Source: Marivita hallyeonensis
Lineage (GTDB): Bacteria > Pseudomonadota > Alphaproteobacteria > Rhodobacterales > Rhodobacteraceae
DNA: 64,000 nucleotides
Direction of reading: 5' to 3'
Assembly: GCF_900129875.1 (NCBI RefSeq)
Contig: NZ_FQXC01000004.1
Coordinates: 62,001-126,000, forward strand
Shown here: piece by piece, positions 9,686 through 18,664 of the stretch
Layout: the number at the start of each line of letters is the position of its first letter
Position numbering within the stretch: the first letter of the stretch is position 1
Notes under the pieces: model-generated
The model's input: the letters and a program-made list of their open reading frames with translations, nothing else
Told to the model about the DNA's origin: nothing
Database searches by the model: none
Program-made: the position numbers and the translations under genes

Positions 9686-11231
9686 GGCGGCACTCATCTG
9701 GTTTCTGGCCGGTGCGATCCCCGTAGCGGCGCAGGACGGACCGTTGTCGGCCATCGATTGGTTGGCCGTGCAACGCGAGATTCCGTCCGTGGTGGCCATC
9801 ACACCGGCGCCAAACGAAGCCCCGGTCGCGGAAACCGCGGCAGTGCCCGATATCGAGGTACAAACCCTCAACGCCCCGTCAGTGGGCGGCACCGGACTTT
9901 TACCAAGCAGTATCACGGGACTTCCTCCGTCTCTCTGGCGTGGGAGTACAGAGGCCGATGTGATCGCCGCGCTGGAACCGCTGCGGCGCGGAAAGCCAGC
10001 CGTTCCCGCGCTGGACACCCTGTTGCACACCCTGCTGCTGGCCGAAGCCGACCCGCCACAAGCCTCCGACGGCAAGCGCTTGTTCGAGGCAAGGATCGAC
10101 GCACTGTACGATCATGGCCTCGTCGCACCAGCCGAAGCCATGGTCGATCGCGCCGGTGATCTGACACCAACACTGTTCCAACGCGCGTTCGACCTTGCGC
10201 TCCTCACCGGGTCTGACGAGGCCCTGTGTCAGCGCCTCAACGAAAACCCCAGTCTCAGCCGTGATCTCTCCACGCGCATCTGGTGCGCGACCCGCGCCGG
10301 GGATTTTTCGCTAGCGATGACCGTGTATCAGACCGGCGTCACTCTTGCGCAATTGTCCGACACGGACGAAGAGCTGCTGCTGAGGTTTCTTGATCCTGAA
10401 TACGCGGAACAGGTGGATCCGCTTCGGCCACCGGTGCGCCCGACACCGCTTCAGTTTCGTCTGTTCGAAGCCATCGGAGAGGCGCTGCCCACTGCGCCGC
10501 TGCCCCTGCCCTTCGCGGTGGTGGAACTCACCGGAGACGCCGGATGGCGGGCCCAGCTTCAGGCCGCCGAACGCCTCGCCCGTGCGGGCGCGATCGACGG
10601 CAACCAGCTTTTGGGCGCATACACCCAGCAAATGCGCGCGGCCTCCGGCGGTATCTGGGACAGGGTCGAAGCGCTGCAACGGTTCGAAACGGCGTTGACC
10701 ACCGGCGATCCCGGCGCGGTCTCCTCCTCACTTGAGCGCGTGTGGCCGCAAATGCGCAATGCCGGGCTTTTGGTACCTTTTGCGAACCTCTTCGCCTCAC
10801 GCCTGCAAGGGCTGCCCCTGTCGAGCCGCGCTGCGCGCATCGCGGCCTATGCGGCACTGCTGTCGGATGATTACGAAGCTCTGGCTGGCAATTTGGCCGA
10901 CACCGACGACCCCCAAATCGCCTTCCTCGCCGCGATCGCCAAAGGACAGGCGCCGCAAACGCTGCCGCCCGATATGCCTCACCGCAGATCCCTCGCGGAC
11001 ACCTGGCAGGCAGCGCCTGTTGCCCCGCCGGACATGGCGCGGATGCCGGGGCAAAACCGCCTTGGCGAAGCGCTTCTTAGAACCATCGACACCTTCGAAA
11101 ACGGCGCCAATGGCAACAGCGCCGATCTTACCTCGGCACTGACCACCCTGAGGGCCTTCGGCCTTGAAGACACTGCACGGCGCAGCGCATTGCAGCTGGC
11201 CATCCTCGACCTGGAGCGTGCCAGACGATGA
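9675..11231 (+). CDS. Large secreted hypothetical protein upstream of xerD
   Basis: This 518-residue protein has a signal peptide (MRIKAALIWFLAGAIPVAAQ, cleavage near residue 20) and an otherwise soluble, alanine- and leucine-rich sequence. The many short helical segments of paired helices suggest an alpha-solenoid-like periplasmic fold; no catalytic motif is visible. It overlaps the 49-residue membrane peptide at its start and xerD at its end (ATGA), so the three genes form one operon. I do not recognise the family by name. A structural role at the cell envelope is possible but unproven. Confidence 0.85.
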   Translation: MRIKAALIWFLAGAIPVAAQDGPLSAIDWLAVQREIPSVVAITPAPNEAPVAETAAVPDIEVQTLNAPSVGGTGLLPSSITGLPPSLWRGSTEADVIAALEPLRRGKPAVPALDTLLHTLLLAEADPPQASDGKRLFEARIDALYDHGLVAPAEAMVDRAGDLTPTLFQRAFDLALLTGSDEALCQRLNENPSLSRDLSTRIWCATRAGDFSLAMTVYQTGVTLAQLSDTDEELLLRFLDPEYAEQVDPLRPPVRPTPLQFRLFEAIGEALPTAPLPLPFAVVELTGDAGWRAQLQAAERLARAGAIDGNQLLGAYTQQMRAASGGIWDRVEALQRFETALTTGDPGAVSSSLERVWPQMRNAGLLVPFANLFASRLQGLPLSSRAARIAAYAALLSDDYEALAGNLADTDDPQIAFLAAIAKGQAPQTLPPDMPHRRSLADTWQAAPVAPPDMARMPGQNRLGEALLRTIDTFENGANGNSADLTSALTTLRAFGLEDTARRSALQLAILDLERARR

Positions 11232-12157
11232 GCGACACCCACTGGATCGCCGCTTTCCTCGATGCCCAAGCGGCAGAGCGCGGTGCTGCCACCAACACGC
11301 AACTGGCCTACGCGCGCGATCTGAAAGACTTCACGGATTGGCTCGAGCGGGAAGCTGCGTCACTGGCGACAGCGCAGAAATCGCATGTGGAAGACTATCT
11401 GGTCTATTGCGACGCACAGGGTCTGGCCAAATCGACCCGCGCGCGGCGTCTGTCTGCGATCAAGCAGCTCTACCACTTTTGTTTCGAGGAAGGTCTCCGG
11501 TCCGATAACCCCGCAGTCCAGATCAGTGGCCCGGGCCGTGACAAGCGCCTCCCGAAAACCCTGTCGACCGAGGAGGTCGACCGCTTGCTCGAGGCGGCCC
11601 TCACCCGGGGGCGCAGCCCGGATGACAGATGCCGCAACACCTGTCTGATGCAGTTGCTCTACGCCACTGGCATGCGCGTCAGCGAACTGGTGTCGCTGCC
11701 GCTGTCCTCGGCCAAGGGGGATCCGCGCATGCTGCTCATCAAGGGCAAGGGTGGCAAGGAACGTATGGTGCCCCTCTCCCCCCCGGCGCGCGCGGCCTTG
11801 CGCGACTGGCTCCAGCTACGCGAAGCGCAGGAGGACGCCGCGCGCGTCGATGGCAAATCCGGATCGACCTTCCTGTTCCCCTCGCGCGGCAAGTCCGGAC
11901 ACCTGACCCGGCACGCGTTCTACATCCTGATCAAGGACCTTGCTGTGACCGGCGGCGTCTCTCCGGCCAAAGTCACCCCGCACACGCTGCGCCACGCGTT
12001 TGCCACGCATCTCCTCGCCAACGGGGCTGATCTGCGGGCCATCCAGACCTTTCTCGGCCATGCCGATGTGTCGACCACCGAGATCTACACGCATGTTCTG
12101 GAAGAACGGCTGAAAGAGCTGGTGCTCGATCATCACCCACTGGCCCGCGATGCGTGA
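11228..12157 (+). CDS. xerD: Tyrosine recombinase XerD
   Basis: This 309-residue site-specific recombinase should resolve chromosome dimers at dif together with XerC. The N-terminal SAM-like core-binding domain (residues 1-~95) includes the characteristic NTQLAYARDLKDF. The catalytic domain has Arg I in YATGMRVSELVSLPL, HTLRHAFATHLL (His and Arg II), LGHADVSTTEIYTHV (His III and the nucleophilic Tyr). Xer proteins are hard to separate by eye; placement close to aroK/aroB is the usual xerD context in alphaproteobacteria, which favours XerD over XerC. It is intact, unlike the island integrase at 54 kb. Confidence 0.93.
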   Translation: MSDTHWIAAFLDAQAAERGAATNTQLAYARDLKDFTDWLEREAASLATAQKSHVEDYLVYCDAQGLAKSTRARRLSAIKQLYHFCFEEGLRSDNPAVQISGPGRDKRLPKTLSTEEVDRLLEAALTRGRSPDDRCRNTCLMQLLYATGMRVSELVSLPLSSAKGDPRMLLIKGKGGKERMVPLSPPARAALRDWLQLREAQEDAARVDGKSGSTFLFPSRGKSGHLTRHAFYILIKDLAVTGGVSPAKVTPHTLRHAFATHLLANGADLRAIQTFLGHADVSTTEIYTHVLEERLKELVLDHHPLARDA

Positions 12158-12221: not shown

Positions 12222-13538
12222 ATGGAACCCGCATCTACCGCGGCAGACGCCGCTTTCTGGATCACTGCCTCCGCCATCGTCGGATTGCTGGTCCTTTCGG
12301 CCTTTTTCTCCGGATCGGAAACCGCGCTGACCGCAGCCTCGCGCGGCAAGCTGCGCACGATGTCCGACAAGGGATCAATGGGCGCCGAACGCGCCCTGAC
12401 GATCACCGAAGACAATGAGCGCCTTATCGGATCAGTGCTGCTGGGCAACAACCTGGTCAATATTCTGGCGACGTCTCTGGCAACCGCCCTCTTCACCCGG
12501 TTGTTCGGCGAAAGCGGCGTTGCCTTGGCGACGCTGGTCATGACCCTGCTTGTTCTGATCTTTGCCGAGGTGCTGCCCAAAACCTATGCCATCACCAATC
12601 CCGAAACCGCGGCAAGCCGTGTGTCGCCGGTCATTGCGCTTGTCATCACCGTCTTTTCACCGATCGTCGGTGCCGTTCGCATGTTGGTGCGCGGCGTGTT
12701 GCGCATCTTTGGGGTCAAGACGGATCCCGACAGCCACATCCTGGCCGTGCGCGAAGAAATCGCGGGCGCGCTGCAACTCGGACACTCCGAGGGCGTGGTC
12801 GAGAAAGAGGACCGCGATCGCATCCTCGGCGCGCTGGACCTGAGCGAACGCACGGTTGAGGAAATCATGCTCCATCGCTCGGGCATCGAAATGATCGACG
12901 CCGACAACGATCCGCAGGACATCCTCCGGCAGTGCCTCGAATCCAACCACACCCGCCTGCCCGTCTTCCGCGGCGACCCCGAGAACATCATCGGTGTGGT
13001 CCACGCCAAGGACCTGTTCCGCGCCATGTACACGTTCATGCAGGAAAGCGATCGTCCGGCGGACGCGATGAACGAATTCAAATTCGCCGACGTGGCAATG
13101 AAGCCGTACTTCATCCCCGAAAGCACGTCACTCGATGACCAGATGCGCCAGTTCCTCCGCCGCCGCACCCACTTCGCACTCGTCGTAGACGAATACGGCG
13201 CATTGCAGGGGTTGATCACGCTCGAAGATATCCTCGAAGAGATCGTTGGCGAGATCACGGACGAATTCGACCCCGACGGCGACCACCCGATCAAACGCGG
13301 GGACGACGGCAATTTCTGGATCGACGGGTCCATGACAATCCGCGATCTCAATCGCGCACTTGAGTGGAACCTGCCGGATGAAGAGGCCAACACAGTCGCA
13401 GGCCTCGTGATCCACGAGGCGCAGATGATCCCCACCATCGGCCAGTGCTTCAGCTTCCACGGGTTCCGCTTCGAGGTCACCGCCCGCGACAACAACCGCA
13501 TCACCGCGCTGAAGATCCGCCCGCTCGCGCCCGAGTAA
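12222..13538 (+). CDS. Hemolysin-family CNNM/CBS-pair protein (CorC/HlyC/YtfL type)
   Basis: This 438-residue inner-membrane protein has an N-terminal CNNM (DUF21) domain with hydrophobic segments at residues ~10-35, 70-115 and 130-155. It then has two CBS domains (~210-330, including HTRLPVFRGDPENIIGVV and HFALVVDEYGALQGLITLED) and the C-terminal CorC/HlyC domain (~350-435). Related proteins act in magnesium or cobalt transport or its regulation; 'hemolysin' is a historic name. Length is standard. It is followed by the hairpin array that separates it from the convergent oxidoreductase. Confidence 0.93.
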   Translation: MEPASTAADAAFWITASAIVGLLVLSAFFSGSETALTAASRGKLRTMSDKGSMGAERALTITEDNERLIGSVLLGNNLVNILATSLATALFTRLFGESGVALATLVMTLLVLIFAEVLPKTYAITNPETAASRVSPVIALVITVFSPIVGAVRMLVRGVLRIFGVKTDPDSHILAVREEIAGALQLGHSEGVVEKEDRDRILGALDLSERTVEEIMLHRSGIEMIDADNDPQDILRQCLESNHTRLPVFRGDPENIIGVVHAKDLFRAMYTFMQESDRPADAMNEFKFADVAMKPYFIPESTSLDDQMRQFLRRRTHFALVVDEYGALQGLITLEDILEEIVGEITDEFDPDGDHPIKRGDDGNFWIDGSMTIRDLNRALEWNLPDEEANTVAGLVIHEAQMIPTIGQCFSFHGFRFEVTARDNNRITALKIRPLAPE

Positions 13539-13548
13539 GTCAGGCCCC

Positions 13549-13694
13549 GTTTCCGTCACCGGAAACGCCGCGGCCCGCGCGCGCGGGCCGTCCTCTGCGC
13601 CCGGCAGAGGGCCCGTGTCCGTGACGGACACGTCTCCCCGGCTGCGCCGGGGATCAACACTGCGCGGCAGTGTCACGTTTCCAGTGATGGAAAC
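13549..13694. repeat. Array of seven consecutive hairpins between convergent genes
   Basis: Seven inverted repeats follow each other with only 3-4 bases between most of them. They are GTTTCC..GGAAAC (13549-13566), the perfect 20-base palindrome CGGCCCGCGC/GCGCGGGCCG (13571-13590), CCTCTGC..GCAGAGG (13592-13610), CGTGTCCG..CGGACACG (13614-13632), TCCCCGGC..GCCGGGGA (13635-13653), ACACTGC..GCAGTGT (13657-13673), and GTTTCC..GGAAAC again (13677-13694). Loops are 0-6 bases. The array fills the whole gap up to the stop codon of the convergent gene. No T-tract follows any stem, so it is not a set of ordinary terminators. Confidence 0.9.
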
Positions 13695-16109
13695 TCACGC
13701 GCGCAGGCGCGCGCCGTCCGGGTCAAACGGCGGACGGTCGAGAATGGTCGCGCGGTGCGGGCGGCCGAGGATCATCACCTCCACGGCATCCCCGGGGGCG
13801 GCGTCCTTGACGTAGCCAAGCGCAAGCGACTGCCGGACATGGTACCCGTAGCCTCCTGATGTGACCCGGCCAATGCCGACGCCATCCTTGAAGATCGGTT
13901 CTCCTCCGGTCGCATCGGCGTTCGATGCGCTCACATCTGCATCGTCCAGCGCAAGCAGAACCATCCGCTCCCGCGGTGACGTGTTCATGGTCTCAACCGC
14001 TGCGCCCTTGTTAAGGAAGTCCGTGTCGAGTTTGCACAGGCGATCAAGCCCGCACTCCTGAGGCCAGTATTCCGGGCTGTATTCCCGCCCCCAGGATCCG
14101 TAGCCCTTCTCCAGCCGCAAGCTCATCAACGCGCGGCTGCCGACCGGGACGGCCCCGACCTCCCGGCCCGCCTCGAGCAGCGCGCCATACAGCGCCACCT
14201 GATCCTCGGCGCGGCAATGCAGTTCCCATCCCAGATCGCCTGTGAAGGACACCCGAAGCGCCATCACCGCGACCCCGGCCACCTCCATCGTCCGGGACCG
14301 CATGAACGGAAAACTGTCTGTGTCCAGCGATGTGTTGGTCAGCCGCTGCAAAAGCGCGCGGGCTTGCGGACCCGCAACATTGAAGCCGCACCAGGAGTCA
14401 GTCAGGCTTTCAAAAGCTGTCCCCTCGGGCAAAGGCACCTGATCGTAAAAGCGCGTCTGATAGCGCTCAGCCACGCCGGAACTGATGATCCAGAACTCAT
14501 CTTCGGCCAAGCGCGTCACCGTCGCGTCTCCCGCAATGCCGCCTCGTTTGCCGATCAGCGGCGTCAGACAGGATCGGCCAATCTCGCGCGGCATCCGGTT
14601 CGCGAACACCGCATTCAGCCAGTCCTCCGCCCCGGGCCCGGACACCCGGTATTTGGCGAAGTTCGAAATGTCGATGATCCCCGCCGCCTCCCGCAAAGTG
14701 CGCGCCTCGTGTCCCACCACGTCCCACCAGGGCTGACGTGTGAACCCCGCGCTGTCGGGCACGTCCTTCGAGAAGTAAAGCGGGTGCTCCCACCCGTAGT
14801 TCAGCCCGAACACAGCGCCCATGTCGCGCTGCATCTGATAGACCGGGCGTGTGCGCACCGGGCGCCCCGCCGCGCGTTCCTCGTTCGGGAAATGGATCTT
14901 GAACCGATGGGCGTATTGATCACCGACCCGCGCCTTGGTGAACTTGGCATCCGCCCAGTCACCGAACCGCGCCACGTCCCACGCGAACATATCGTACTGC
15001 ATCTCGCCTTCGATGATCCACTGCGCCACCATCAGCCCCATACCACCCGATTGGCTGAATCCCGGTATGATCCCGTTGCAGCAGAAATAGCCCGGCTTCC
15101 CGGGCACCGGACCCAAAAGAACGTTCGAATCCGGCGACCAGATCATCGGGCCGTTGATGACGCGCTTGATCCCGGCCTCACCAACCGCAGGCACGCGGGC
15201 GATCGCGCGCATCATGTTGTCCTCGATCCGCTCCAGATCATCGGCGAACAGCTCATGCCCAAAGCCTTGCGGCGTTCCGTCCTCCGCCCAGAAGCGCACG
15301 TCTTTCTCATATGCCCCGACCAGCAGGCCCTTGCCCTCTTGCCGCAGGTAGTACTCGCCGTCGCGATCCGCGACCGAGGGCAAACGACGCTCCATCGCGG
15401 CGATCTCGGCAATGGGTTCGGTCACGAAGTATTGGTGCTCGGTCGGCAAGAGCGGCAGCGTGATCCCGGCCAGAGCCGCCACCTCGCGCCCCCAAAGGCC
15501 GGCGGCGTTCACCACCCAATCCGTACGAATATCGCCCTTTGGCGTACGGACGACCCAGGTTCCGTCCGGCTGCGCCTCGGTCGCCGTCACGGGCGTGAAG
15601 CGATGGATCTCGGCCCCCCGCTGCCGCGCACCTGCCGCGTAGGCCGCCGTGACGCCGGACGGGTCGACGTTGCCGCCATCGGGTTCGTACATGATGCAGC
15701 GGATGCCGTCGAAATCGACGAGCGGATGCAGCCGCTCTGCTTCGTCCCGCGAGACTTCGTGGAAGTTCATTCCGTAAAGCCGCGCCTTAGCCTCTTGCAG
15801 GCGTAACTGGTGTTCCCGCGCTTCGGTCTGCGCCAGATACAGTGACCCCGGCTGGAACACACCGCAGGATTGTCCGGTCTCGGCTTCAAGCTCTTTGTAG
15901 AGGGTCATCGTGTAATGCTGCAGGCGGCTGATATTGGTGCTATCGTGCAGCCCGTGGATGTTCGCCGCCGCGTGCCATGTGCTGCCGCTGGTCAGCTCGT
16001 CGCGTTCCAACAGGACAACATCGGTCCAGCCCAATTTTACCAGATGGTACAAAATCGAGCAGCCGATAACGCCGCCCCCGATGACAACGGCCTGGGCGTG
16101 GGTTTTCAT
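13695..16109 (-). CDS. FAD-dependent oxidoreductase with GcvT domains (dimethylglycine/sarcosine dehydrogenase-like)
   Basis: This 804-residue enzyme probably oxidises an N-methylated amine and may pass the one-carbon unit to tetrahydrofolate. The domains in order are: DAO-type FAD domain from the N-terminus (VVIGGGVIGCSILYHL, dinucleotide fold), with the GSTWHAA motif whose histidine is the covalent-flavin residue in DMGDH/SarDH relatives; an FAO_M middle domain (~385-440); then GcvT and GcvT C-terminal domains (~445-800). The start at 16109 has an AGGAG site eight bases upstream; the open frame extends further but without a site. It is divergent from a paralogue at 16259, so the two share a control region. 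Confidence 0.92.
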   Translation of the reverse strand: MKTHAQAVVIGGGVIGCSILYHLVKLGWTDVVLLERDELTSGSTWHAAANIHGLHDSTNISRLQHYTMTLYKELEAETGQSCGVFQPGSLYLAQTEAREHQLRLQEAKARLYGMNFHEVSRDEAERLHPLVDFDGIRCIMYEPDGGNVDPSGVTAAYAAGARQRGAEIHRFTPVTATEAQPDGTWVVRTPKGDIRTDWVVNAAGLWGREVAALAGITLPLLPTEHQYFVTEPIAEIAAMERRLPSVADRDGEYYLRQEGKGLLVGAYEKDVRFWAEDGTPQGFGHELFADDLERIEDNMMRAIARVPAVGEAGIKRVINGPMIWSPDSNVLLGPVPGKPGYFCCNGIIPGFSQSGGMGLMVAQWIIEGEMQYDMFAWDVARFGDWADAKFTKARVGDQYAHRFKIHFPNEERAAGRPVRTRPVYQMQRDMGAVFGLNYGWEHPLYFSKDVPDSAGFTRQPWWDVVGHEARTLREAAGIIDISNFAKYRVSGPGAEDWLNAVFANRMPREIGRSCLTPLIGKRGGIAGDATVTRLAEDEFWIISSGVAERYQTRFYDQVPLPEGTAFESLTDSWCGFNVAGPQARALLQRLTNTSLDTDSFPFMRSRTMEVAGVAVMALRVSFTGDLGWELHCRAEDQVALYGALLEAGREVGAVPVGSRALMSLRLEKGYGSWGREYSPEYWPQECGLDRLCKLDTDFLNKGAAVETMNTSPRERMVLLALDDADVSASNADATGGEPIFKDGVGIGRVTSGGYGYHVRQSLALGYVKDAAPGDAVEVMILGRPHRATILDRPPFDPDGARLRA

Positions 16110-16191: not shown

Positions 16192-16258
16192 TTTTCGGGC
16201 AGGCAGGCCCGACACCGGGATGGACATGGTCGGGCAAACGCGAACAGGATCGGACGGT

Positions 16259-18664
16259 ATGAAAACGCAAGCACGTGTGGTGGTCATAGGCGGCGGGGTC
16301 GTCGGGGTGTCAGTGCTCTACCACCTGACGAAACTCGGCTGGTCCGATGCGATGTTGGTCGAGCGGTCGGAACTGACCTCCGGCAGCACATGGCACGCGG
16401 CAGGCGGGTTTCATACGCTCAACGGCGATACCAACATGGCCGCGCTGCAGGGCTATACGATCCGTCTCTACAAGGAGCTTGAAGAGATCACCGGCATGTC
16501 CTGCGGATTGCACCACGTGGGCGGCATCACGCTCGCAGACAATCGCGACCGGTTCGACATGCTGCTCGCTGAACGGGCGAAGCATCGGTATATGGGGCTG
16601 GACACGCAGATCGTCGGACCGGAAGAGATCGCCAAGATCGCGCCGATCACCAACACCGATGGCATCCTTGGTGCACTCTACGACCCACTCGACGGCCATC
16701 TCGACCCGTCCGGGACCACCCACGCCTATGCCAAAGCGGCGCGTATGGGTGGGGCAACGATCGAAACCCATGTCATGGTGCAGGAAACCAACCAGCGCGC
16801 GGATGGCACTTGGGACGTGGTCACCGACAAGGGCACGATCCACGCGGAACACGTGGTCAACGCGGGCGGCCTTTGGGCGCGCGAGGTGGGCGCGATGGCG
16901 GGCGTCTACCTGCCGCTGCACCCGATGGAACATCAGTACATCGTCACCGATGAGATCGCAGATATCTACGAGCGTAGCGAAGAACACCCGCATGTGATGG
17001 ACCCGGCAGGCGAAAGCTATCTCCGCCAGGAAGGGCGCGGCCTGTGCATCGGGTTCTATGAACAGCCCTGCCGCCCGTGGGCGGTCGATGGCACACCGTG
17101 GAGCTTTGGCCACGAACTCCTGCCCGACGACTTTGACAAGATCGAAGACAGCATCGCCTTCGCCTACCAGCGCTTCCCAGTCCTTGAGACCGCGGGCGTC
17201 AAATCGGTGATCCACGGGCCATTCACCTTCGCCCCCGATGGCAACCCGCTCGTTGGCCTCGTCCCCGGACTGCGCAACTACTGGTCCGCATGCGGCGTGA
17301 TGGCAGGCTTCAGCCAGGGCGGCGGTGTCGGCCTGATGCTCGCGCAGTGGATGGTCGAGGGCGAATGCGAGCGGGACGTCAGCGCGATGGACGTCGCGCG
17401 GTTCGGCGACTGGATCAGCCCGGGCTACACGCTGCCGAAGGTGATCGAAAACTACCAGAAACGCTTTTCCGTCAGCTATCCCAATGAAGAACTCCCCGCT
17501 GCGCGACCCAACCGCACGACCCCGATGTACGACATTTTCGACCAGATGGGCGCGGTCTGGGGCGCGCAATTTGGGCTTGAGGTGGTGAACTACTTCGCCA
17601 ACGACGGCGAAGACCGCTACGAGACCCCCAGTTTCCGCCGATCCAATGCCTTCGACGCCACCGCGCGCGAGGTGAAGGCCGTCCGGGAAGCCGTTGGAAT
17701 CAATGAGATTCACAACTTCGGAAAGTACGAGGTCACCGGCCCGAATGCCCGCGACTGGCTTGACCGCATCATGGCAGGCCGCGTGCCGAAACCGGGCCGC
17801 CTGTCGCTGACCCCGATGCTGTCCCATAAGGGCAAACTGATCGGCGATTTCACCATCTCCTGCCTGTCGGACACGCATTTCCACCTGACCGCCAGCTACG
17901 GCGCGCAAGCTTATCACATGCGCTGGTTCGAACAGCACGCGCAGGACGGCGTGACCGTGCGCAATGTGTCGGACACGCTGACCGGATTTCAGATCGCCGG
18001 ACCGAACGCCCGAAAGGTGCTGGACGCCGTGACCCGCGATGCGACCGACCTGCGGTTCATGGACGTGCGCGCGATGACCATCGGCACGACGCCCTGCCTC
18101 GTGCAGCGGGTCAGCTACACGGGCGGCTTGGGGTACGAGATCTATTGCGAACCCGTGGCGCAGCGTCAGCTCTGGCACACGCTATGGAGCTCCGGTCAGG
18201 ACCACGGCATGCGCCCCTTCGGAATGCGGGCGATGATGTCGCTGCGCCTCGACAAGTTCTTCGGGTCTTGGCTGTCGGAGTTCTCACCCGACTATACCCC
18301 GGCCGAAACTGGCATGGATCGTTTCATCGCGTTCAAGAAAAACACCGACTTCATCGGGCGCGCCGCGGCAGAGGCCGAGAGGTCCAATTCGCCCGAACGA
18401 ACCCTTGTTGCCTTCGAGGTCGATGCGCAGGACGCCGATGTGCAGGGCTATGAACCCGTCTGGGTCGACGGTGAGGTGCGCGGCTTTTGCACCTCGGGCG
18501 GGTACTCGCACCACGCGGGCAAGTCTATCGCTCTGGCCCTGATCCCGCGCGACCATGCTCAGGATGGAACCAAAGCGAAAATCGAAATTCTGGGCCAAAT
18601 GTGCGACGCAACGCTCATCACCACCCCGCTTTACGATGCGGACGGGGCGCAGATGCGCGGCTAG
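16259..18664 (+). CDS. FAD-dependent oxidoreductase with GcvT domains, paralogue (dimethylglycine/sarcosine dehydrogenase-like)
   Basis: This 801-residue protein has the same layout as the divergent neighbour: N-terminal FAD-binding VVVIGGGVVGVSVLYHL, the GSTWHAAGG motif with the presumptive flavin-linking histidine, the FAO_M region, and C-terminal GcvT folate-binding domains (FGKYEVTGPNARDWLDRIMA, SYTGGLGYEIYCEP). The start ATG at 16259 gives the family-typical MKTQARVVVIGGG N-terminus; the frame runs 31 codons further upstream without a good site. Substrates are probably methylated glycines from glycine betaine breakdown or similar osmolytes; which of the two acts on which cannot be told from sequence. 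Confidence 0.93.
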   Translation: MKTQARVVVIGGGVVGVSVLYHLTKLGWSDAMLVERSELTSGSTWHAAGGFHTLNGDTNMAALQGYTIRLYKELEEITGMSCGLHHVGGITLADNRDRFDMLLAERAKHRYMGLDTQIVGPEEIAKIAPITNTDGILGALYDPLDGHLDPSGTTHAYAKAARMGGATIETHVMVQETNQRADGTWDVVTDKGTIHAEHVVNAGGLWAREVGAMAGVYLPLHPMEHQYIVTDEIADIYERSEEHPHVMDPAGESYLRQEGRGLCIGFYEQPCRPWAVDGTPWSFGHELLPDDFDKIEDSIAFAYQRFPVLETAGVKSVIHGPFTFAPDGNPLVGLVPGLRNYWSACGVMAGFSQGGGVGLMLAQWMVEGECERDVSAMDVARFGDWISPGYTLPKVIENYQKRFSVSYPNEELPAARPNRTTPMYDIFDQMGAVWGAQFGLEVVNYFANDGEDRYETPSFRRSNAFDATAREVKAVREAVGINEIHNFGKYEVTGPNARDWLDRIMAGRVPKPGRLSLTPMLSHKGKLIGDFTISCLSDTHFHLTASYGAQAYHMRWFEQHAQDGVTVRNVSDTLTGFQIAGPNARKVLDAVTRDATDLRFMDVRAMTIGTTPCLVQRVSYTGGLGYEIYCEPVAQRQLWHTLWSSGQDHGMRPFGMRAMMSLRLDKFFGSWLSEFSPDYTPAETGMDRFIAFKKNTDFIGRAAAEAERSNSPERTLVAFEVDAQDADVQGYEPVWVDGEVRGFCTSGGYSHHAGKSIALALIPRDHAQDGTKAKIEILGQMCDATLITTPLYDADGAQMRG

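Follow-up and report, generated by a model that had tools for sequence, protein, structure and literature searches.

A row of seven hairpins without T-tracts between convergent genes of Marivita hallyeonensis: a candidate two-way 3'-end element related to a genus-specific paired-hairpin cassette

Genomic context and structure of the hairpin array

The window, the whole 64,000-nucleotide stretch of the Marivita hallyeonensis genome analysed here, contains a convergent gap between a plus-strand CorC-type gene, whose stop codon ends at position 13538, and a minus-strand gene whose stop codon occupies 13695-13697 (Table 1; gene calls were made with a custom script rather than a standard caller). 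Positions 13548-13694 hold seven perfect, non-overlapping hairpins (H1-H7) with stems of 7-8 bp and loops of 3-5 bases, neighbours lying 1-3 bases apart, and an eighth hairpin (H8), with a stem of 6 bp, falls within the 3' end of the minus-strand gene. Nine bases separate the plus-strand stop codon from H1, and H7 directly abuts the minus-strand stop codon. The first and last hairpins of the array carry GTTTCC/GGAAAC arms, and the inner stems have no obvious sequence in common among themselves.

Table 1. Positions of the two flanking genes and of the hairpins between and beside them
Feature	Position	Strand	Remarks
CorC/CNNM-like membrane/CBS protein gene	12222..13538	+	stop codon 13536-13538; every NCBIfam match below the curated cut-off
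H1, B-type hairpin CGTTTCCG-TCAC-CGGAAACG	13548..13567
H2, perfect 20-base palindrome	13571..13590
H3, hairpin CCTCTGC-GCCCG-GCAGAGG	13592..13610
H4, hairpin CGTGTCCG-TGA-CGGACACG	13614..13632		B-like by eye
H5, hairpin TCCCCGGC-TGC-GCCGGGGA	13635..13653
H6, hairpin ACACTGC-GCG-GCAGTGT	13657..13673
H7, B-type hairpin GTTTCCA-GTGA-TGGAAAC	13677..13694
H8, hairpin CGCGCG-CAGG-CGCGCG	13698..13713		within the minus-strand gene, at its 3' end
FAD oxidoreductase and GcvT-like domain fusion, dimethylglycine dehydrogenase/sarcosine oxidase-like	13695..16109	-	all NCBIfam matches below the curated cut-offs

The minus-strand gene and its divergent neighbour at 16220-18664 (+) both encode FAD oxidoreductase/GcvT fusions of the sarcosine oxidase/dimethylglycine dehydrogenase type with similar family matches, and a XerC/XerD-like tyrosine recombinase gene (11228-12157, +) lies immediately 5' of the CorC-like gene. 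The array showed no match to a CRISPR or to any Rfam family at the gathering score; across the window, the Rfam matches were two tRNAs and a strong match to the Ruegeria Cis52 sRNA (RF02647; 2043-2220, minus strand; 112.7 bits), all located elsewhere.

This is the sole array of at least three hairpins in the window, with the minimum stem set at either 6 or 7 bp, and no such array occurred in ten dinucleotide shuffles of the window under either setting. The gap folds with z scores of -7.2 on the plus strand and -6.6 on the minus strand, none of the 200 shuffles per strand being equally stable, and all eight hairpins are GC-rich, with individual energies of -6.5 to -17.4 kcal/mol. An alternative fold, available on either strand, joins H1 to H7 through 18 bp and encloses the five inner hairpins; it reaches -100.9 (+) and -101.7 (-) kcal/mol, compared with -90.9 and -91.3 for seven local hairpins, and is thus about 10 kcal/mol more stable on paper, although during transcription the local hairpins could be the first to form. 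No T-tract follows any hairpin of the array on either strand, the eight adjoining bases on the relevant side holding at most three T or A.

The original prediction, made from the letters of this stretch, had described seven back-to-back hairpins in the convergent gap, identical GTTTCC/GGAAAC arms at both ends, a perfect 20-base palindrome and the lack of T-tracts, and each of these features was recovered. It had placed the array at 13549-13694, whereas the first stem starts one base earlier and the additional H8 lies beyond the minus-strand stop codon. Its proposal that both strands be folded against shuffled controls likewise yielded the excess of stability reported above.

Hairpins and wobble pairs by gap class

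Hairpins with stems of at least 7 bp were surveyed in 2.06 Mb of the same genome, comprising the window and 100 further stretches, with a first set and a replicate set. Convergent gaps contained 4.33 and 4.11 hairpins per kb in the two sets, respectively, against 0.50 and 0.28 after shuffling, an enrichment of 9- to 15-fold. The corresponding densities were 1.70 and 1.81 (shuffled, 0.43 and 0.49) in codirectional gaps, 0.72 and 0.62 (shuffled, 0.32 and 0.38; little enrichment) in divergent gaps, and 0.46 in coding sequence (first set). In convergent gaps of the first set, 72 of 86 hairpins lacked five T or A in the eight adjoining bases. Among 116 hairpins in codirectional gaps, 77 were nearer to the upstream stop codon and 38 to the next start codon; 12 of the 77 were followed by a T-rich stretch (at least five T in eight bases), so that U-dependent termination is probably in use in this genome. 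The first set comprised 109 convergent gaps, and seven hairpins were found in two of them, namely the gap of the window and one in stretch L116. Besides the gap of the window, hairpin-rich convergent gaps of this genome were noted at 15804-15927 of L116 and 4531-4656 of L151, with partly different stems. A bias towards GNRA tetraloops was also considered and rejected: GTGA/TCAC loops recur with no visible strand bias, the counts of GNRA and complementary loops being 2 and 4 in codirectional gaps and 4 and 5 in convergent gaps.

A G-U pair preserves an RNA hairpin transcribed from one strand, and the opposite strand then carries an A-C mismatch. When near-stop stems of codirectional gaps were restricted to those containing a single non-Watson-Crick pair and read in message sense, G-U outnumbered A-C by 22 to 8 (p=0.016) and, in the replicate, by 16 to 6 (p=0.052), while the coding controls gave 146:134 and 90:100. 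Two observations temper this excess: when T-less near-stop hairpins were taken alone, the ratio was 21:12 and not significant (p=0.16), and stems near start codons in codirectional gaps showed an excess of G-U as well (6:3 and 8:2), which counts against a 3'-end reading. Function of the RNA from both strands predicts fewer wobbles where both strands are messages. In the pooled data, G-U or A-C defects were found in 22 convergent stems against 85 perfect ones, and in 52 codirectional near-stop stems against 79 (Fisher p=0.0019), other mismatches occurring in 21 convergent and 33 near-stop stems; the G-U:A-C ratio of 10:12 within convergent gaps is uninformative because the reading strand is arbitrary there. 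The gap-class enrichment, together with the scarcity of wobble-type defects in convergent stems, suggests that the hairpins act in RNA made from both strands.

A genus-specific family of paired-hairpin cassettes

The arms shared by H1 and H7 recur elsewhere in the genome as one half of a cassette, which consists of an A hairpin (GATGCG-loop-CGCATC) and a B hairpin (GTTTCC-loop-GGAAAC). The pattern GTTTCC-N6-GGAAAC has 14 sites in the M. hallyeonensis genome against 2 for the reversed pattern, and GATGCG-N4-CGCATC has 13 against 0 for its control. Across a genus set of 17 genomes, consisting of this genome and 16 others (metagenome-assembled genomes included; assignment to Marivita inferred from named loci), the B pattern occurs 2-26 times per genome and the reversed control 1-3 times. 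In 148 other genera it remains at background level, with at most 3 sites per genome, 47 having any and the control reaching 4. This genus-wide cassette family had been overlooked by the original prediction.

Thirty B sites (14 from the genome itself and one from each of the 16 relatives) were inspected for neighbours. A second hairpin lay 3-6 bases away in 27, a figure favoured by the criteria for an A neighbour (a loop-4 hairpin at most 40 bases away with six of six pairs, or five of six with a GCG or GTG core) and including two cases from this array, with two pairs among the 30 sites sharing a gap. By position, 18 B sites were convergent, 11 codirectional, one intragenic and none divergent; the 13 A sites comprised seven convergent, four codirectional and two intragenic. 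None of 25 cassettes had T5 after or A5 before it.

A covariance model (R1) was built from 25 A-B pairs with the two of this array left out. With up to 150 candidates scored per genome, it matched 11-101 times in each of the 17 genus genomes and 25 times in the genome itself, counts that include the 25 training cassettes, which are bound to match, and that enter a palindromic site twice when it matches on both strands. Under stricter filters, three of 99 other genera yielded one weak match each (best E 2.4e-4). Within the array, R1 recognised H1-H2 at 13547-13593 on the minus strand (30.6 bits, E 6e-6), H6-H7 at 13655-13696 on the plus strand (24.7 bits, E 2e-4), H7-H8 at 13675-13717 (19.8 bits, E 3e-3 in 64 kb) and, weakly, H3-H4 (10.1 bits); H1 was scored again at 13527-13568 with almost no A stem. 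These scores lean mainly on the B arms, which are common to all training rows, the A partners having diverged in sequence. The array appears to have been assembled around copies of this genus-specific cassette that have since diverged. The hairpin array of stretch L124 and the gap of L116 in the same genome likewise contain matches to the model.

A DNA uptake sequence was rejected as an explanation of the recurrent arms, as single words occurred near expectation in the first set (GTTTCC, 613 versus 668; GTTTCCG, 239 versus 249; GATGCG, 1968 versus 1857). Longer words reaching into the loop, GTTTCCGTCA and GATGCGGTGA, were over-represented in the same set (11 versus 3.3 and 16 versus 6.4 expected), so it is the hairpin that stands out and not the half site. 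No paper on Marivita intergenic repeats or on the consensus strings of the cassette was found among the open-access texts searched.

The same gap in relatives

The CorC-type gene was located in all 16 other genus genomes, and in 15 of them it faces the same convergent partner gene; in the remaining one (L274), the partner gene was not within the 1.5-kb flank. One A-B pair lies near the CorC stop codon in relatives. In 13 of the 16, the pair downstream of the gene scores 15 or 16 of 16 base pairs, the maximum among 320 shuffles being 13, and 12 of these 13 sit in the convergent gap, the other being that of L274. The three remaining relatives score 9, 11 and 13, their pairs being decayed or doubtful. 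A GGGGGC-loop-GCCCCC hairpin bearing a TATTT stretch frequently comes next after the A-B pair. Such a hairpin, then a ACCCCCGAGGTATTT-like sequence and a AGAGAAGA-like end, make up a recurring 3'-end element that often adjoins the A-B pair and has sites in the L006-L014 gaps downstream of the CorC-like gene and in other gaps of the genome itself.

Pairing is retained in these relatives despite changes in the arms. In an alignment of 14 rows, from which the two lowest-scoring and probably mis-anchored sequences (L268 and L273) were dropped, A pair 4 is C-G in nine and T-A in five, A pair 8 is A-T in nine, C-G in four and mismatched in one, B pair 1 is G-C in ten and A-T in four, and B pair 6 is T-A in ten and G-C in four; the rows are sequences rather than independent events, some coming from close relatives. 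Only two of 252 cells hold a G-U pair, and the B arms of L271 read GTTACC/GGTAAC. Among dispersed copies (alignment A2), six of 14 pairs changed on both sides, with 18 cells against 3.0 in shuffles; because the B arms were fixed by the search pattern there, only the outermost and innermost B pairs are informative.

The array of the window, with a B hairpin at each end, exceeds this arrangement. H2-H6 have no evident counterpart in the 16 genus relatives, and the co-variation therefore covers the A-B hairpins alone. When 22 gaps were compared, the window included, 15 contained at least one hairpin with a stem of 7 bp and nine at least two. Outside the genus, six of 12 orthologous gaps contained such a hairpin, with different stems, and the other six had none. 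Since pairs are decayed or doubtful in three of the 16 relatives and half of the gaps outside the genus are free of hairpins with a stem of 7 bp, the element seems dispensable in some species.

Origin of the array

Cassettes in other genomes of the genus form clusters of two to four with periods of about 60, 67, 76 or 103-105 bases. Near-constant periods of 103-105 or 66-67 bases characterise the clusters in L316 (B sites at 2002, 2105 and 2210), L319 (1838, 1941 and 2044) and L317 (1986, 2053, 2120 and 2186); by eye, the repeats of L316 and L319 extend to the spacer as well, a pattern suggestive of tandem duplication. Seven clusters, chosen among the best R1 matches listed, were inspected, and by gene lengths they seem to amount to about three loci. 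According to the custom calls, six of the seven lie between codirectional genes, a placement that counts against the two-way 3'-end reading. No clean insertion boundary was visible by eye when 24 cassette gaps were compared with the genome itself, cassettes being common to both, decayed or missing; one of the 24 (L293) is the genome's own locus against itself, and several are one gap in different relatives. The present array may go back to an ancestral gap with an A-B pair, through multiplication and divergence in this species. The idea of repeated insertion of palindromic elements, raised in the original prediction, accordingly holds in part: a dispersed cassette that clusters elsewhere contributes its B hairpin twice to the array, as H1 and H7, but a clean insertion site was lacking.

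The family resembles repetitive extragenic palindromes (REPs) in having many intergenic palindrome copies per genome. As described in PMC3733652, REP/BIME elements, of which the CGTC-tagged REPs are common in alphaproteobacteria, are short intergenic palindromes, often dimers of two different units, located mostly in convergent or codirectional gaps near 3' ends, and the CGTC type lacks a dedicated transposase. The likeness ends at the array, where seven to eight stems follow one another nearly without a spacer, and at the cassette arms, which vary while pairing is kept. GTAG/CGTC tags flanked 25 cassettes at chance level (left GTAG 1 and GACG 1, right CGTC 2 and GACG 1; about 0.9 expected per tag and side). 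A Y1 (RAYT) transposase was found in four of the 17 genus genomes, being absent from M. hallyeonensis, from 12 of the 16 others and from the three genomes richest in matches (101, 91 and 79). The missing tags and the missing transposase link rule out a RAYT-driven REP family of the GTAG/CGTC type. The part of the REP survey PMC12306157 that was available does not name the genus Marivita.

A two-way 3'-end element and its alternatives

Taken together, the array is probably, by a modest measure, a 3'-end element that works in two directions, in which RNA hairpins without T-tracts are stacked around diverged cassette copies. Each converging message would reach the array at most 10 bases past its stop codon, RNA polymerase would be released through Rho, head-on collision or hairpin pausing, and the RNA 3' end would then be trimmed back to the hairpins, which would protect it. 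The array would accordingly be transcribed from both sides, with RNA ends presumably lying at its hairpins and additional hairpins raising efficiency, and the stems would stay Watson-Crick because the same bases serve both messages. This proposal builds on what comparison of the sequences reveals, namely the array, the cassette family, the 3'-end placement and the two-sided A-B changes behind the same gene in relatives. A row of hairpins ending both messages appears to be the simplest reading, as it covers the placement, the scarce wobbles, the absent T-tracts and the persistence in relatives. The original prediction had listed four roles without choosing among them, and two gained support. 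One is the partly upheld insertion of palindromic elements; the other, an action at the 3' ends of two convergent RNAs, agrees with the enrichment by gap class, with the few wobble-type defects in convergent stems and with the hairpins that persist in relatives; the compensatory changes and the excess over shuffled sequence on which that prediction was to stand or fall are both present, the former for the A-B hairpins and not for H2-H6.

SEnd-seq work of Ju and colleagues has reportedly described bidirectional terminators between convergent genes with U-tracts on each side. Those elements share with the array a single palindromic element serving two converging units, polymerase collision possibly helping, and differ from it in their U-tracts. 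An ordinary bidirectional or canonical intrinsic terminator was indeed rejected here: GC-rich hairpins are present, but the U-tract is absent on both strands. Rho is encoded in the genome. The 150 bases beyond the array have C and G fractions of 0.32 and 0.36 on one strand and 0.27 and 0.40 on the other; they are not C-rich and G-poor, and hence offer no simple Rho-loading signature. In E. coli, according to PMC13289151, Rho-dependent ends are trimmed to hairpins without U-tracts. Those exonuclease-stop hairpins are likewise GC-rich, lie near the message end and have no strong U-tract, whereas the array lacks a C-rich, G-poor downstream signature and has seven hairpins instead of one. Overlapping 3' UTRs of convergent genes can also be cleaved by RNase III, as stated in PMC7821165.

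Termination units that need no U-trail have been proposed to consist of hairpins that follow a stop codon at intervals of under 15 bases (Gupta and Pal 2021, PMC8355165), and the hairpins of the array show that spacing close behind the stop codons. A cluster of this kind, in which hairpins alone pause and dislodge the polymerase additively in both directions without Rho or an exonuclease, is an unlikely account. The 1-3-base spacing of the array falls well within that proposal, which describes several U-trail-free hairpins right behind a stop codon and, in the passages considered, draws its support from agreement with RNA-seq; the array differs in filling an entire convergent gap behind two genes and in having ends that come from a recurring sequence family, and the T-rich stretches behind 12 of 77 near-stop hairpins indicate that the genome probably uses U-dependent termination. 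We regard as unlikely the idea that the hairpins are largely non-functional REP-like palindromes that spread or duplicate, are tolerated behind genes and keep perfect stems by template switching instead of selection. The family is dispersed and genus-specific, its clusters have near-constant periods with repeated spacers in L316 and L319, and G-U steps are almost absent (2 of 252 cells), as templated correction would yield; template switching can create and repair stems, as reported in PMC8794818, and templated palindrome repair could mimic the A-B co-variation. Such a process sits poorly with the absence of B sites from divergent gaps (0 of 30, although 163 of 751 first-set gaps are divergent), with the A-B pair kept in 13 of 16 relatives despite arm changes, with the absence of a Y1 transposase from 13 of 17 genomes and with the message-sense G-U excess in codirectional gaps, unexpected for a process confined to DNA.

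An element acting at the DNA level is very improbable, be it a row of inverted repeats for a dimeric protein or a set of cruciforms that, between converging polymerases, would serve as a roadblock or take up supercoils. Excess of GTTTCC-N6-GGAAAC over its reversed control in the 17 genomes would suit it, as would a GTYRAC-like core seen by eye in many sites, and stacked palindromes between convergent genes would stand where positive supercoils meet; yet the inner stems have no obvious common sequence, a fixed protein site would hardly tolerate B arms that vary among relatives (GTTTCC, GGTTCC and GTTACC), and the sampled B sites avoid divergent gaps. The protein-binding chain suggested in the original prediction gained no direct support. 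A further reading is decidedly unlikely: a dispersed 3'-end signal peculiar to Marivita may have evolved in the form of the paired-hairpin cassette, whose core and loop are conserved and which a dedicated factor for RNA binding or 3' processing would recognise on either strand, in which case the array would be that signal multiplied, insulating two converging messages.

Biological significance

The means by which bacteria end messages that lack a U-tract are still to be established, and failure costs most at convergent genes, where read-through makes antisense RNA. Even if the array proves ordinary, it would still be an extreme case of a common arrangement. As a REP-like family without known tags and mostly without a known transposase, the cassette offers a setting in which selection and templated palindrome repair may be separable. 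The variation downstream of a single gene, from no intact pair through one pair to seven hairpins, would provide a natural test of the action of such hairpins and of their number.
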